Below are positions 1 to 2,725 of a DNA stretch of 11,207 nucleotides, piece by piece; position 1 is the first letter of the stretch; each line of letters starts with the position of its first letter. A program made the translations under genes and the position numbers. The stretch lies in contig JAHIZU010000160.1 in the NCBI GenBank assembly GCA_018814265.1, forward strand, positions 1 through 11,207, read 5' to 3'. The notes under the pieces were generated by a model. That model was given only the letters and a program-made list of their open reading frames with translations, was not told the origin of the DNA and did not search any database. This stretch comes from Candidatus Margulisiibacteriota bacterium (GTDB lineage: Bacteria > Margulisbacteria > WOR-1 > O2-12-FULL-45-9).

Positions 1-53
1 CGCTTCCGTCCGACGCTTCTTGCTTCGCTTCCGCCCGACGCGCATCGCTCCTC
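1..53 (-). repeat. GC-rich direct repeats downstream of the four-helix-bundle gene
   Basis: Positions 23-53 match positions 468-498 without gaps at 26 of 31 bases, in the same orientation. Positions 1-16 (CGCTTCCGTCCGACGC) are identical to 471-486, and 26-41 is a one-mismatch copy of the same 16-mer. On the minus strand the copy begins at the last two bases of the four-helix-bundle stop codon, so repeat units bracket that gene. The array may continue beyond the left edge of the window. Confidence 0.8.
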
Positions 54-501
54 AACGCCTATACTTCGAGTAACTCCGCCAGGAATGTGACAAATTAAAA
101 AGCTGCCTGCTTATCTTGTCATATAGATCTATTAGTTTAATGAGAGCAGCCGAGTTGGCTGTTGAGGCGTATAGATCCTTGACTTGAGTTAAAGAAACGA
201 TCGTCTCATTTGATTCAGCGTGAGCATCATCAATATATTTCTGAAATCCCCTGGCCTGATGCCGTTTAGAATGTCCTTCAGCGATCAGCCTGGGGATCGC
301 CTTGCAGGAACGCCTTAATTGATCGGCCAGATCGAATCTTTCTTCTTTTGGCAAAAGCGGCAGGATATGTTTGAAAATGGTTAGCATAGCTTTGTAACTG
401 TTTTGATAAACATCCAAGTCCCCGTATCCTCTGATGACGCCCGACGCCTTTCGCCTAACGATTCGCTCTTCGCTTCCGTCCGACGCATAACGCTCTTCCA
501 T
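52..501 (-). CDS. Four-helix-bundle protein (S23/IVP family)
   Basis: This 149-residue protein resembles the four-helix-bundle family first described from 23S rRNA intervening sequences, which shares its fold with the Avd accessory protein of diversity-generating retroelements. Family signatures I can see are YGDLDVYQNSYK near residues 26-37, LADQLRRSCKAIPRLIAEG near 58-76, the RGFQKYIDDAHAESNE helix near 84-99, and a C-terminal helix with LIDLYDKISRQLFNL. Biochemical function is not established; members are thought to oligomerise and bind nucleic acid. The ATG at 501 is supported by a GGAGG about 8 bases upstream. Family members normally begin close to the YGDLDVYQ segment, so residues 2-25 are an extra, charged leader encoded by repeat DNA. 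The gene starts three bases after the ORF6N stop codon, which implies co-transcription and probably coupled translation. I see no reverse transcriptase or template repeat that would make it a retroelement Avd. Confidence 0.85.
   Translation of the reverse strand: MEERYASDGSEERIVRRKASGVIRGYGDLDVYQNSYKAMLTIFKHILPLLPKEERFDLADQLRRSCKAIPRLIAEGHSKRHQARGFQKYIDDAHAESNETIVSLTQVKDLYASTANSAALIKLIDLYDKISRQLFNLSHSWRSYSKYRR
468..498 (-). repeat. Upstream copy of the bracketing direct repeat, inside the 5' coding end
   Basis: This is the partner of the copy at 23-53 (26 of 31 identical, gapless). It encodes residues 2-11 plus one base of the four-helix-bundle protein. Translated in the corresponding frame, the downstream copy gives nearly the same peptide (EERCASGGSE against EERYASDGSE). 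Further GCG-rich, degenerate units continue through about 437-467, so the whole extra leader of the protein looks repeat-derived. Confidence 0.75.
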
Positions 502-504
502 TGC

Positions 505-1026
505 TCAATCCTCCTTTTTAGTAATAAAGCCGATATTAGTTTTTGGTTTTGCTTCGGTCGCGATCATTTTTTCAATTGCTTTGATGATCAGTCCGATCTC
601 AGTATCGTGCCGGTCGACCTTGTGTTTGAGCTCTTTAAATAAATAGGTGAGGTCTTTGTTTGTGGCGAGGACCGTCCTTAGCTTAACAAAGGTGCGCATT
701 ATCTGAATGTTCACTTCCGCAGCTTTCTCGCTGTGCAAGACGGATGAAAGCATGGCTAACCCTTGCTCGGTGAAAGCGTAGGGTTGATACCTGCGGCCAC
801 CTCGTTTTGAGGTTCCATTTTGGAACCTCATGTTATCGTGTTCCTGCTGGGTAAGTTGGAACATAAAATCAGCTGGAAACCGCTTTGGATTCCTTGAAAC
901 AGCCTTGTTTAGATTTTTTGTTCTGACCCCATATAGTTTTGCTAGATCACTATCAATCATTACTTTTTGACCTCTGATGAAATAAATCTTGTTCTCTATT
1001 CTCTCAATCGGCATCAACTTGTTCAT
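505..1026 (-). CDS. ORF6N (KilA-N-like) DNA-binding domain protein
   Basis: This is a 173-residue protein with an N-terminal ORF6N domain (residues about 8-95), a DNA-binding module common in phage antirepressors and in chromosomal genes of many bacteria. Hallmarks are VMIDSDLAKLYGVRTKNLNKAV (22-43, ending in the predicted DNA-contact helix), RFPADFMFQLT (49-59), GGRRYQPYAFTEQGLAMLSSVL (76-97) and the AAEVNIQIMRTFVKLR helix (102-117). Residues 110-160 look like a charged coiled coil, probably for oligomerisation, followed by a Lys-rich tail. I chose the ATG at 1026: GGAG at 1032-1035 lies five bases upstream of it. A TTG at 1039-1041 would add five residues but would place that site inside the gene. 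Residues 67-72 (RFQNGT) are encoded by a palindrome matching two palindromes in this gene's own upstream region, so autoregulation is likely. It is probably a transcriptional regulator; the target is unknown beyond that inference. Confidence 0.85.
   Translation of the reverse strand: MNKLMPIERIENKIYFIRGQKVMIDSDLAKLYGVRTKNLNKAVSRNPKRFPADFMFQLTQQEHDNMRFQNGTSKRGGRRYQPYAFTEQGLAMLSSVLHSEKAAEVNIQIMRTFVKLRTVLATNKDLTYLFKELKHKVDRHDTEIGLIIKAIEKMIATEAKPKTNIGFITKKED
808..830. repeat. Coding-embedded palindrome (P3) of the AGGTNNCAAAWTGNNACCT family
   Basis: Perfect 10-bp arms TGAGGTTCCA (808-817) and TGGAACCTCA (821-830) surround three T. It encodes RFQNGT at residues 67-72 of the ORF6N protein. The layout matches the two palindromes at 1056 and 1086, with the variable dinucleotide being TC/GA. 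It could be an internal operator of the gene or a substrate for recombination with the upstream copies. Confidence 0.8.
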
Positions 1027-1031
1027 TTTTT

Positions 1032-1037
1032 CTCCTT
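1032..1037 (-). promoter_or_regulatory. Ribosome binding site deciding the ORF6N start
   Basis: AAGGAG read on the minus strand, with five A before the ATG at 1026. It favours that ATG over the TTG at 1039-1041. Confidence 0.6.
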
Positions 1038-1044
1038 TCAATAT

Positions 1045-1073
1045 GTATTAGCTTTAAGGTCACAAATTGTGAC
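1045..1073 (-). promoter_or_regulatory. Putative promoter of the ORF6N/four-helix-bundle pair
   Basis: On the minus strand, GTCACA (1068-1073) and TAATAC (1045-1050) are spaced by 17 bases, each a 4-5 of 6 match to the sigma-70 consensus. The implied transcript would begin just ahead of the ribosome binding site. The palindrome at 1056-1076 covers the -35 element and most of the spacer, the usual position of a repressor operator. A second reading, with TTGGCA inside the palindrome at 1086-1102 as the -35 element, is also possible; either way the palindromes sit on the promoter. Confidence 0.35.
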
Positions 1074-1076
1074 CTT
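1056..1076. promoter_or_regulatory. Perfect palindrome P1, likely operator of the ORF6N gene
   Basis: Arms AAGGTCACAA and TTGTGACCTT surround a single A, a perfect 10+1+10 palindrome. Its centre (1066) is 40 bp upstream of the ORF6N ATG and 28 bp from the centre of the next palindrome. Read as minus-strand codons its core would give R-S-Q-F-V-T, the same pattern as the RFQNGT encoded at the matching site in the gene. Confidence 0.7.
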
Positions 1077-1085
1077 GAACGAACC

Positions 1086-1102
1086 GGTGCCAATTTGGCA
1101 CC
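1086..1102. promoter_or_regulatory. Perfect palindrome P2, likely second operator
   Basis: Arms GGTGCCAA and TTGGCACC surround a single T. On the minus strand it fits the AGGTNNCAAAWTGNNACC frame with GC/GC at the variable positions, and its codons would read R-C-Q-I-G-T. Its centre (1094) is 68 bp upstream of the ORF6N start codon. Confidence 0.7.
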
Positions 1103-1163
1103 TTAAAAGTATTACAGCAATCTTATTGCCACTATTAACTAACAAAACGCTCGCTTCGCTCGC

Positions 1164-1264
1164 TACAACTTACAACTAACAACTTATATTGATTTTTATT
1201 ATAATAATAGGGAATTAGATATAAGTTGTAGGCCCGAAGGGCCGTGTTGTTTGTTGTAAGTAGT
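1164..1264. repeat. AT-rich imperfect inverted repeat in the divergent intergenic region
   Basis: The left arm at 1164-1189 is built from ACAACT/TAACAAC words; the right arm at 1219-1264 is built from the complementary words. The inner stem is an exact 11-bp match (1179-1189 with 1219-1229); the outer part (about 1165-1183 with 1244-1262) pairs with a few mismatches. A GC-rich mini-hairpin at 1231-1243 interrupts the right arm. The gap 1042-1353 has no convincing gene: it holds palindromes P1 and P2, this element, and the holB promoter. Low-complexity elements of this style recur in uncultivated-bacterium genomes, from memory. Confidence 0.5.
1231..1243. repeat. GGCCC-GAA-GGGCC hairpin
   Basis: A perfect 5-bp GC stem with a GAA loop lies between the two parts of the larger inverted repeat. 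No uniform T run follows on either strand, so I do not call it a terminator. Confidence 0.45.
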
Positions 1265-1337
1265 TAGTTAATAGGTGTCGAGATCACGACAGGATGGAGT
1301 AGGGGATATTCCGCTCCTTTTTCCAGCCTCAAAATCA

Positions 1338-1346
1338 TGCTATAAT
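1338..1346 (+). promoter_or_regulatory. Extended -10 promoter of the holB operon
   Basis: TGCTATAAT is a perfect extended -10 element; no good -35 is visible 16-18 bases upstream, which is common for extended -10 promoters. Transcription would start around 1352-1354, at the holB ATG itself, and no Shine-Dalgarno sequence precedes that ATG. The operon's first message may therefore be leaderless. Confidence 0.5.
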
Positions 1347-1353
1347 TATCCAA

Positions 1354-2055
1354 ATGTCGCGGGTGAAAAAAATCCTCAATGGGATCGCGAAATGCGATCG
1401 CGTAGTAGGGGCTTATTTGTTCGTTGGGCCGCCTGGAGTTGGCAAAAAACAAGCAGCGCAGGACTTTGTGGCGTCGCTTAAGTGCCAAAAGCAGGATGTG
1501 TTCAATGTCGCGCCTACCGGCAAGAGCTTGAAGATAGACGAGATCAGAGAACTGCAAAAGTGGGTGCGATTTGGCCCCTCGATCAGTCCTTATCTGGTGG
1601 TCATTGTTGAGCAAGCAGATACTTTAACTGATCAAGCGGCCGCGGCTTTTCTGAAGACCTTGGAAGAGCCGGCAGCGGGTGTGGTTTTTGTGCTGCTGGC
1701 AGAGCGCGAAGATAAGCTTCCAGCAACAATCTTATCGCGTTGCCAGAAAATAGTTTTTGCCGAGCTAGCCATTCCGTGGCAGGCTGATCCTGGCCTGGAT
1801 ACTTTTTATAGCGGCTTAAGGGATATTAAAGGCAAAGGGGTAGAGGCAGCGTTGAGTTTTGCGATCAGATTAGGCACGGAAAAAGACAGGATCGAAGACC
1901 TGCTTTACGAGTTAGCCAGCTTTGTGCGCTATGACCTGCTTGACGCCAAGGCGGCCAGGATAATCCTTGATACTGTGCGCTACATCAAGCGCCGGGCAAA
2001 TTTAAAATTGGCTTTGGATGTTATGTGTTTAAAATTAGGTGGGGAAAATGTCTGA
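1354..2055 (+). CDS. holB: DNA polymerase III delta prime subunit
   Basis: This is the clamp-loader subunit that helps load the beta sliding clamp at replication forks. The AAA+ fold is recognisable: AYLFVGPPGVGKK (20-32) is the P-loop, with Lys rather than Ser/Thr after the Walker lysine, consistent with the poor or absent ATPase of delta prime. VVIVEQAD (82-89) is the Walker-B region, AAAFLKTLEEP (96-106) the following conserved helix, and LSRC (127-130) the SRC motif carrying the arginine finger. The zinc-binding cysteines of DnaX are absent, which argues against dnaX. At 233 residues it is about 100 shorter than E. coli HolB, so the C-terminal collar domain is reduced. No in-frame start lies closely upstream and the N-terminus fits the family, so the ATG at 1354 is preferred. 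The last codons overlap ricT, as in the holB-ricT cluster of Bacillus. Confidence 0.88.
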   Translation: MSRVKKILNGIAKCDRVVGAYLFVGPPGVGKKQAAQDFVASLKCQKQDVFNVAPTGKSLKIDEIRELQKWVRFGPSISPYLVVIVEQADTLTDQAAAAFLKTLEEPAAGVVFVLLAEREDKLPATILSRCQKIVFAELAIPWQADPGLDTFYSGLRDIKGKGVEAALSFAIRLGTEKDRIEDLLYELASFVRYDLLDAKAARIILDTVRYIKRRANLKLALDVMCLKLGGENV

Positions 2056-2725
2056 AAAAGATGCAACAGATAAACATCAGTTAGCGATCAAGCTCAGGAA
2101 ATTCAACCGGATCTGTCCTATTGCCGGTTATAAAGAGGGATCGATCCGGGTTGGTTCGCCGGTAATTGTCCAAACCGATCGGGGGATCGAATGCGGGGAG
2201 ATCGTGTCCTATCCGCTGGGGCTGCCCAAAGCCTTGTCCCGCGACGTCAAACTAAAAAAAGTCGTTCGTTACGCCACCGCCCAGGACCAAGCTAAGATCG
2301 AAACCCTGCCGGAGATGGAAACCAAGGCCCAACAAATGGCTGCAGAAAAAATTCGCGAGCATGAGCTGCAGATCAAGATCATTAGCGTTGAATACCTGTT
2401 TGATACCGGCCGGGCGACTGTCTACTACAAGGTCCACGAAGGCAAAAAGATCAATAACCTGCGCGACCTGACCAGGGACCTGTCGAATAGTTTAGCCGCC
2501 CGGGTTAATTTGCGCCAGCTCTCTCCGCGGGATGAAGCCCGGATCCTGAGCGGATTGGGGACCTGTGGCAGAAAGTTATGTTGCTCAAACTGGCTGGAAA
2601 AACCCAGACATGTTACGGTCAGGATGGTCAAGGATCAGGGTTTGCAGATCTCGCCGTCCAAAACCTCGGGCATCTGCGGCCGGCTGATGTGCTGCCTGGA
2701 ATACGAACACGAAAAAAAACAATAG
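2048..2725 (+). CDS. ricT: PSP1-domain protein, RicT/YaaT family
   Basis: This 225-residue protein belongs to the PSP1 family, named stage 0 sporulation protein in Bacilli, where RicT joins RicA and RicF in a complex that binds [4Fe-4S] clusters and acts with RNase Y in mRNA maturation. The diagnostic cysteines are present: GTCGRKLCC (171-179; C173, C178, C179) and GICGRLMCC (208-216; C210, C215, C216). The preceding DLTRDLSNSLAARVNLRQLSPRDEA stretch is also typical. Nothing suggests sporulation, so an RNA-processing or regulatory role is more plausible here. I chose the ATG at 2048, preceded by a GGTGGGG purine run; a GTG at 2039 would add three residues. The start overlaps the holB end by 8 bases, which implies translational coupling. 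Confidence 0.88.
   Translation: MSEKDATDKHQLAIKLRKFNRICPIAGYKEGSIRVGSPVIVQTDRGIECGEIVSYPLGLPKALSRDVKLKKVVRYATAQDQAKIETLPEMETKAQQMAAEKIREHELQIKIISVEYLFDTGRATVYYKVHEGKKINNLRDLTRDLSNSLAARVNLRQLSPRDEARILSGLGTCGRKLCCSNWLEKPRHVTVRMVKDQGLQISPSKTSGICGRLMCCLEYEHEKKQ

Follow-up and report, generated by a model that had tools for sequence, protein, structure and literature searches.

The 11,207-bp stretch analysed here, referred to as the window, is contig JAHIZU010000160.1 of the Candidatus Margulisiibacteriota assembly GCA_018814265.1. It contains a small gene of the ORF6N family which embeds a palindrome in its coding sequence, while two palindromes of the same design lie upstream of it. The question raised by this locus is why a protein-coding sequence should hold such a palindrome and what reads it. 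The comparison with homologous genes suggests that ORF6N genes across many bacterial phyla appear to carry an in-frame site recognised by their own protein. The features on which the analysis relies are the following:

505–1026, minus strand: ORF6N-domain gene, 173 amino acids, with its ATG at 1026 and a ribosome-binding-site-like AGGAG directly 5' of it.
895–921, minus strand: putative recognition helix, residues 36–44 (T-K37-N38-L-N-K41-A-V-S), the second helix of a helix-turn-helix (HTH), placed by AlphaFold2 and covariation.
808–830, minus strand (palindrome 810–828): P3, intragenic palindrome TGAGGTTCCAAAATGGAACCTCA, over the codons of residues 66–73; type TTC, G at ±7.
1056–1076, no strand assigned (palindrome 1057–1075): P1, palindrome AAGGTCACAATTTGTGACCTT upstream of the gene, of type TCA and centred 40 bp from the start codon.
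1086–1102, no strand assigned: P2, palindrome GGTGCCAAATTGGCACC upstream of the gene, of type TGC and centred 68 bp from the start codon.

A previous sequence-only reading of the window had described three palindromes of one design, and all of them are present where it had placed them; its numbering of the codons under P3 (residues 67–72) is also correct, counted from the ATG at 1026. The frame that it proposed for the minus strand holds less exactly: P1 reads CAATTTG there, with one mismatch (it is exact on the plus strand), and P2 has one mismatch at an outer base. P2 spans 1085–1103 with the outermost pair mismatched, its perfect part being 1086–1102. With up to three mismatches allowed, the pattern gives six strand-matches (three places) in the window; in 200 dinucleotide shuffles of the window the mean was 0.66 and the maximum 4, none of the 200 reaching 6. 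Moreover, the host assembly (1.48 Mb, 301 contigs, 80.5% complete) harbors the exact 15-bp pattern RTYRCAWWWTGYRAY at four places and RTKCCAWWWTGGMAY at two, all six being located in or just upstream of its three ORF6N genes: P1, P2, and P3 on contig C45, one coding site plus one upstream site on C122, and one coding site on C187. Each of the three genes has one coding site, and upstream sites are found before the window gene (two) and the C122 gene (one). The reversed patterns, used as a control, occur in the assembly at one and zero places, respectively.

Residues 12–96 of the window protein match PF10543 (E = 3.9e-36; 123.6 bits vs. a curated cut-off of 27.8), the only other Pfam match being a weak one, below cut-off, to Phage_pRha, and seven out of the eight PHROG families matching the protein bear an anti-repressor label. 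The AlphaFold2 model has helices at residues 25–32 and 36–44 (predicted local distance difference test scores of 87–91 over the block), and its weak fold matches include MerR-type DNA complexes. The model and the covariation described below suggest an HTH, the second helix of which carries residues 37, 38, and 41, which would read the bases.

The coding palindrome across ORF6N genes

ORF6N genes were retrieved from relatives, from named genomes, and from viral contigs (47 loci), plus 117 further stretches. The relatives are about 150 listed matches ranked by score and, having been chosen by similarity, are biased towards the subfamily of the window gene; the named-genome loci are the best 80 of 587. 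A hidden Markov model built from 18 collected ORF6N genes gave 312 domain matches, 291 of which had all the needed columns and 275 of which were distinct. The palindrome was sought in the loop flanked by the FMFQL and YxP motifs and scored out of eight pairs (the type of a site is its inner trinucleotide, and positions are counted from its centre); the null model recoded each loop with synonymous codons at the gene's own usage. Loci L317–L354 were examined separately, outside the main statistics.

In the 275 distinct domains, which come from bacteria and viral contigs, the best loop palindrome scores 8/8 in 145 cases and 7/8 in 107, vs. 0.8 and 14.5, respectively, predicted when the same peptides are recoded synonymously. 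A score of at least 7/8 is reached by 252 domains vs. about 15 expected from recoding, and by 240 when a CA-N3-TG core is demanded. The palindrome is 25–27 bp long, with a symmetry extending to ±13, and in 197 distinct sites the pairs at ±4, ±5, and ±7 to ±13 are complementary beyond the expectation for independent columns. The same DNA is translated in two frames, giving RSQFVT-like or LVTNCDR-like peptides. Since its palindromicity goes beyond that obtained by recoding and two reading frames are used, it is the DNA, and not the peptide, that is kept. The sequence-only reading had named non-palindromic RxQxxT codons as a finding that would speak against it; the palindromicity of these codons far exceeds what codon chance would give. 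Residues 68 and 71 of the loop vary by class (S-V, S-A, C-G, F-G), and more than one loop site is present in 14 of the 275 genes, in some cases as in-frame tandem copies.

A limit on generality comes from the named plasmid and phage loci, 5 of 13 of which (L317, L323, L326, L327, and L329) lack the standard 7/8 palindrome. One of them, L327 (674–1291), is a 4.1-kb Segatella copri plasmid whose only annotated products are an ORF6N protein and a replication protein. Peptides like RCKNCTS form the loop of some Bacteroides-like members (L125, L317), and L125 and L165 show a variant palindrome, GTGCAA..TTGCAC, in place of the CA-WWW-TG core.

The compensatory complementarity of these sites would be expected of an RNA stem too, that is, of a hairpin in the coding region of the mRNA selected for translation control or for RNA binding by the protein. 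This possibility seems to us very unlikely. An RNA stem should favour G.U pairs, but the sense-strand mismatches are A.C or C.A in 44 cases and G.T or T.G in 20 (codon effects uncorrected); no Rfam match at gathering scores was retrieved from window positions 1–2400; sites of the same design are found upstream of some genes; and the inner pairs track a DNA-recognition helix in both half-sites.

Recognition helix and site letters

The helix motif is LYGV-x-T-37-38-L-x-41-x-V, and its residue 41 corresponds to the inner trinucleotide of the site: Gln to TCA, Glu to TCG, Lys to TTC, and Arg to TGC. The rule was fixed with the training set partly seen, and the hold-out loci (L166–L282) were read afterwards; three of the six batches of hold-out loci had already been located by then, as coordinates only, and several hold-out genes share genomes with training genes. 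In the main test, a loop palindrome counts if it scores 5/8 or more, has the CA-N3-TG core, and matches in one half; left out are genes with a residue other than E, K, Q, or R at position 41 (2 of 110 hold-out and 2 of 165 training genes). According to this test, 103 out of 108 hold-out genes follow the pre-written rule in at least one half-site (E 16/16, K 26/26, Q 44/46, R 17/20) and 92 in both halves; shuffling residue 41 among them 2000 times gave a mean of 30.8 and a maximum of 45. Hold-out genes less than 80% identical to training genes follow it in 69 of 73 cases. In a stricter count, which considers the top-scoring site only and drops three hold-out genes whose loop DNA is also in a training locus, 98 of 105 genes conform (shuffled mean 29.1, maximum 45); L235 and L240 have two palindromes each, the matching one not being top-ranked. 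The training loci gave 147/163 (E 32/33, K 27/28, Q 62/66, R 26/36).

The five hold-out misses are represented by two Q genes with TCA halves round a mutated centre, one R gene that combines a TTC-type site with an Asn38 helix, and two further R genes with CGC variants. Among the named-genome loci, 73 of 79 genes, from 17 phyla plus five loci without a phylum label, follow the rule, the six misses belonging to Bacteroidota (17/21 follow), Elusimicrobiota (2/3), and Chlorobiota (1/2). In the window itself, the letters of P3 (TTC, G at ±7) are those that the code leads one to expect for a protein with K37, N38, and K41. A fifth class was also observed, with Leu at residue 41 and TTG (three genes) or TTT (one gene), in the loops of L052, L054, L248, and L253.

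The domain columns outside the loop were scanned in the 238 genes with one unambiguous type. Residue 41 accounts for 1.84 of 1.89 bits and residue 38 comes second with 1.52; the next four columns belong to the helix segment as well, beyond which no column exceeds 0.10 bits. Base by base, residues 38 and 41 correspond to ±4 and ±5, and residue 37 to ±7 and, to a lesser extent, ±8. Lys37 is accompanied by G at ±7 in both halves in 126 out of 126 distinct cases and Phe37 by A in 21 out of 21, Arg37 and Gly37 being mixed.

The difference in loop residues between classes might also point to a constraint on the protein, with loop residues 68 and 71 contacting helix residues 38 and 41 and covarying with them, so that the palindrome would be a by-product. 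The codons, counted by peptide motif without requiring a palindrome, argue against this. Ser68 is encoded by TCA in all 87 motifs of Q41 genes and by TCG in 41 of 42 motifs of E41 genes; Arg67 by AGG in 95/95 cases with K37 and by AGA in 7/7 with F37; Gly71 by GGA in 51/51 with K41 and by GGC in 30/33 with R41. With other residues at position 37, Arg and Lys codons are looser (AGA 26/30, AAA 23/30). Furthermore, the rule holds, in at least one half, for every one of the 15 genes using the other frame for the palindrome, and the palindromicity is far above that of recoded versions of the same peptides. The synonymous and frame tests refute the protein-level explanation, unless codon choice has another cause there, and the chance left to it is minimal.

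The code also separates close relatives. In 55 disjoint closest pairs with a different residue 41 and at least 75% identity elsewhere, both genes follow their own rule in 53, and no gene shows the type of its partner in place of its own; with identities as low as 50% admitted, 112 of 118 pairs follow, with one gene having the type of the partner. Since close pairs more often differ at residue 41 (579) than share it (306), specificity turns over fast.

As the bases of the site, synonymous ones included, track the helix, the ORF6N protein very probably binds the site inside its own gene, and the best explanation of the covariation is that each gene's product reads the gene's own site directly. 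The whole evidence for ORF6N sites is comparative.

Upstream copies and the possible use of the site

The sequence-only reading had also staked itself on an enrichment of matching palindromes upstream of ORF6N genes. Within 300 bp upstream, 46 sites scoring at least 7/8 were found before 35 of the 275 genes, vs. 1.0 in shuffles; downstream sites are 16, nine of them inside another detected ORF6N domain. The upstream sites are of the gene's own helix type in 18 of 46 cases, vs. 13.7 expected by shuffling (P = 0.07). As for the window, P1 (TCA) suits a Q41 protein and P2 (TGC) an R41 protein, neither fitting the K41 protein of the window, which calls for TTC; the assembly, which is incomplete, yielded two further ORF6N proteins, each of them E41. 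These data split the proposal that the protein binds a palindrome family with changeable specificity and represses itself. Changeable specificity and a self-directed site are strongly supported, through a helix–site relation that the proposal did not contain, but a gene's type agrees with its own promoter sites weakly at best; self-repression by the protein is something we infer.

The same reading had suggested that the upstream copies are donor cassettes, acting as recombination templates that rewrite residues 67–72. The copies can indeed be read as alternative versions of the loop, and duplication happens, as in the genes with two or more loop sites. Nevertheless, 240 of the 275 genes have no template within 300 bp upstream; a rewriting of the loop only would break the match with the helix, yet the coding site keeps its agreement with a helix that lies about 95 bp from it, and no gene in the 55 close pairs had taken over its partner's type. 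The stretch between helix and site is not exchanged along with them either: the similarity of the helix-to-loop segment is 0.736 in pairs differing at residue 41 and 0.757 in pairs sharing it, the corresponding values for the helix being 0.606 and 0.742. We therefore set this idea aside as highly improbable. Template-driven diversification, which would call for a variable region free of other constraint, is not supported, the coding type being tied to the helix.

Exact sites also occur away from ORF6N genes: 54 distinct ones in 13 genomes comprise 29 inside ORF6N domains, 6 within 300 bp, and 19 elsewhere; 14 of these 19 are symmetric, and one lies inside a Bro-N gene. On viral contigs, an ORF6N domain within 400 bp is missing from at least 112 of at least 120 stretches matching one pattern and from 68 of 69 matching another; many of the viral-contig matches listed resemble terminator hairpins. 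This could indicate palindromes with no relation to the protein, namely terminators or mobile palindromic repeats. However, no T-run follows P1–P3 on either strand, only 4 of the 46 upstream sites are terminator-like, the six exact sites of the host assembly are all at ORF6N genes, and unrelated repeats would not follow the helix, an expectation contradicted by the code; an origin of this kind is extremely improbable. Many AT-rich viral contigs (L355–L434) carry terminator-like hairpins AAAAGAGGTC..GACCTCTTTT that mimic the palindrome and represent a trap for pattern searches. Three full palindromes of types TGC, TCA, and TTC lie within 290 bp in an intergenic region of a one-contig genome (L315 1501–1786, i.e., G010 C1 ~1644944–1645229), before an ArsR-like gene (named by eye), and contig C33 of G012 (L316) starts with a pair similar to the L315 palindromes.

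We consider it probable, overall, that an ORF6N HTH dimer reads the palindrome in its own gene and limits its own production. In this scheme, the protein would be a small HTH DNA-binding protein, probably dimeric through its C-terminal helices, each subunit of which would read one half of the 25–27 bp palindrome, with bases 4 and 5 from the centre read by residues 38 and 41 and base 7 by residue 37. The palindrome, about 200 bp after the start of the gene, lies over the codons of a loop that accommodates quite different peptides; when the helix changes, the intragenic site changes along with it. In the simplest case, bound protein could limit its own production by standing as a roadblock in the way of RNA polymerase, and upstream sites such as P1 and P2 might serve as extra operators, often of the type read by other ORF6N proteins. 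We infer physical binding and dimerisation; autorepression, perhaps as a transcription roadblock, is put forward with less certainty as the likeliest use of the site. Autorepression by a roadblock would suit a family whose genes occur on viral contigs, plasmid records, and chromosomes and cannot rely on any one promoter. If autoregulated, the gene would be a self-contained unit with no need for a particular promoter after horizontal transfer, which would explain how mobile regulators limit themselves after transfer without a matching promoter.

Self-binding might also be real and serve another use, such as tethering, partition, copy marking or counting, or exclusion of related elements, as in the case of ParB-like proteins and parS. 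In B. subtilis a parS site lies inside the parB gene, a point not found in the available passages of PMC7333895. We regard a use of this sort as unlikely: the Pfam scan of the window protein, with ORF6N and the weak Phage_pRha match only, gave no CTPase, ATPase, or ParB-type CTPase domain, the ORF6N gene of the 4.1-kb S. copri plasmid is without the standard site, and no exact site away from ORF6N genes was retrieved from the host assembly. Lacking a ParB-type CTPase domain according to Pfam, the window protein is not a member of the ParB/Noc group. As far as the available text of PMC7383237 describes them, ParB–parS and Noc–NBS have palindromic sites with bases matched by few protein residues, and a change to Gln goes with adenine there, as Q41 does with A at ±4 in ORF6N. 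The two differ in that ParB and Noc, of another family, have two specificities, use cytidine triphosphate (CTP), and act in segregation and nucleoid occlusion, whereas ORF6N has at least four specificities (PMC7383237).

For autorepression from within the gene, the controllers of restriction-modification (R-M) systems offer a comparison. These C-proteins are of the XRE-type HTH family. The window protein was not assignable to them, its Pfam matches being ORF6N and the weak Phage_pRha and no R-M gene being found among the five scanned open reading frames of the window. In the C.Kpn2I system, the site lies within the coding region of the controller, and the protein, once bound there, stalls RNA polymerase and restricts the amount of its own mRNA; in the available part of the paper, the arrangement is called unique among known C-proteins and possibly widespread among C.Kpn2I-like ones (PMC6237814). 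ORF6N likewise is a small regulator with a candidate site of its own inside its own gene. Unlike C.Kpn2I, which belongs to one R-M system, ORF6N is a PF10543 family with the site at a fixed place, tracking the helix across the named phyla that were sampled; the roadblock of C.Kpn2I is a tested precedent, while binding and roadblock are predicted for ORF6N (PMC6237814, as far as its available text goes).

Six exact palindrome and peptide strings are absent from the open-licence PMC papers searched, five of which name ORF6N, and no report of sites inside ORF6N or Bro-N genes was found among the matches listed there. The code provides, from sequence alone, a concrete DNA target and a residue-by-base relation for a common and little-studied family, the site of a given member being predictable from three helix residues. 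The coding sequence is constrained both as protein and, very probably, as a DNA-binding site co-evolving with its reader in the same gene, and the evolution of DNA-binding specificity could be followed in many natural reader–site pairs.

Bro-N genes and the surroundings of the window gene

A second family, Bro-N (PF02498), was analysed in an exploratory way and points to the same architecture, with an in-frame palindrome whose letters follow the gene's own helix (L544 809–1651 and L555–L636). Of 31 loci, 22 could be anchored; 11 of them score 8/8 and 8 score 7/8 within the first ~80 codons (expected 0.1 and 1.4). This count includes L544, which was found through its site and is not unbiased. 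By eye, helices RDYW(Y/F)(K/R)MK go with GTCGAC (7/7) and YWRKLK with GTGACA (5/5), while three genes of another helix type reach only 6/8 (L556, L564, L576). On viral contigs, at least 7/8 is reached in 36 of 42 usable loci (expected 1.1), the 42 being taken from 52 after removal of duplicates and partial genes and some of them being near-identical; codon use was uniform in both Bro-N null models. Viral groups with their own inner letters include YWRVLK, YWSVLK, (P/A/S)RRYWSDLK (vs. PRKYWxDLK), and YIKxMR, and three viral YIKK(L/M)(K/R) genes have a 6/8 palindrome only. Helix types followed by the site letters include YWRKLK, YWRVLK, YWSDLK, and YWYKMK.

The ORF6N/Bro-N network of phage regulators is described as one of domain-swapping DNA-interactive proteins (PMC10111431). 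By profile, the window protein is a member of this network, on the binding sites or in-gene sites of which the available text of PMC10111431 is silent. A broader and rather doubtful extension would be that, in the Bro-N/ORF6N superfamily of mobile regulators, an in-frame address is read by the gene's own product and rewritten when the helix mutates. Every copy, on chromosomes, phages, and plasmids, would then recognise only its own code word, for copy sensing or for silencing of itself and incoming relatives at the gene level, and not for promoter control.

The label of candidate defence gene PDC-S05 was assigned by guilt by association. The PADLOC PDC-S05 models match the window protein, which belongs here by profile (best E = 1.4e-59). 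In the available text of PMC12988326 and PMC13356809, PDC-S05 is named without a mechanism.

Directly downstream of the ORF6N gene lies a further gene:

52–501, minus strand: 23S_rRNA_IVP four-helix-bundle gene (PF05635, E = 1.8e-17; TIGR02436).

Its relation to the ORF6N gene is one of association only. By eye, a protein resembling it comes after the ORF6N gene in L292. In L287 a TCG-type site (1215–1229) immediately precedes a four-helix-bundle-like gene, at a locus identified by eye as metG-like; another relative, L290, has an ORF6N gene there. In the window, a 51-bp GC-rich direct repeat (3–53 and 448–498, 75% identical) surrounds both ends of the four-helix-bundle gene. Beyond P2, the divergent intergenic region is filled by nested inverted repeats at 1132–1274 (1132–1143 with 1263–1274; 1165–1183 with 1246–1264).
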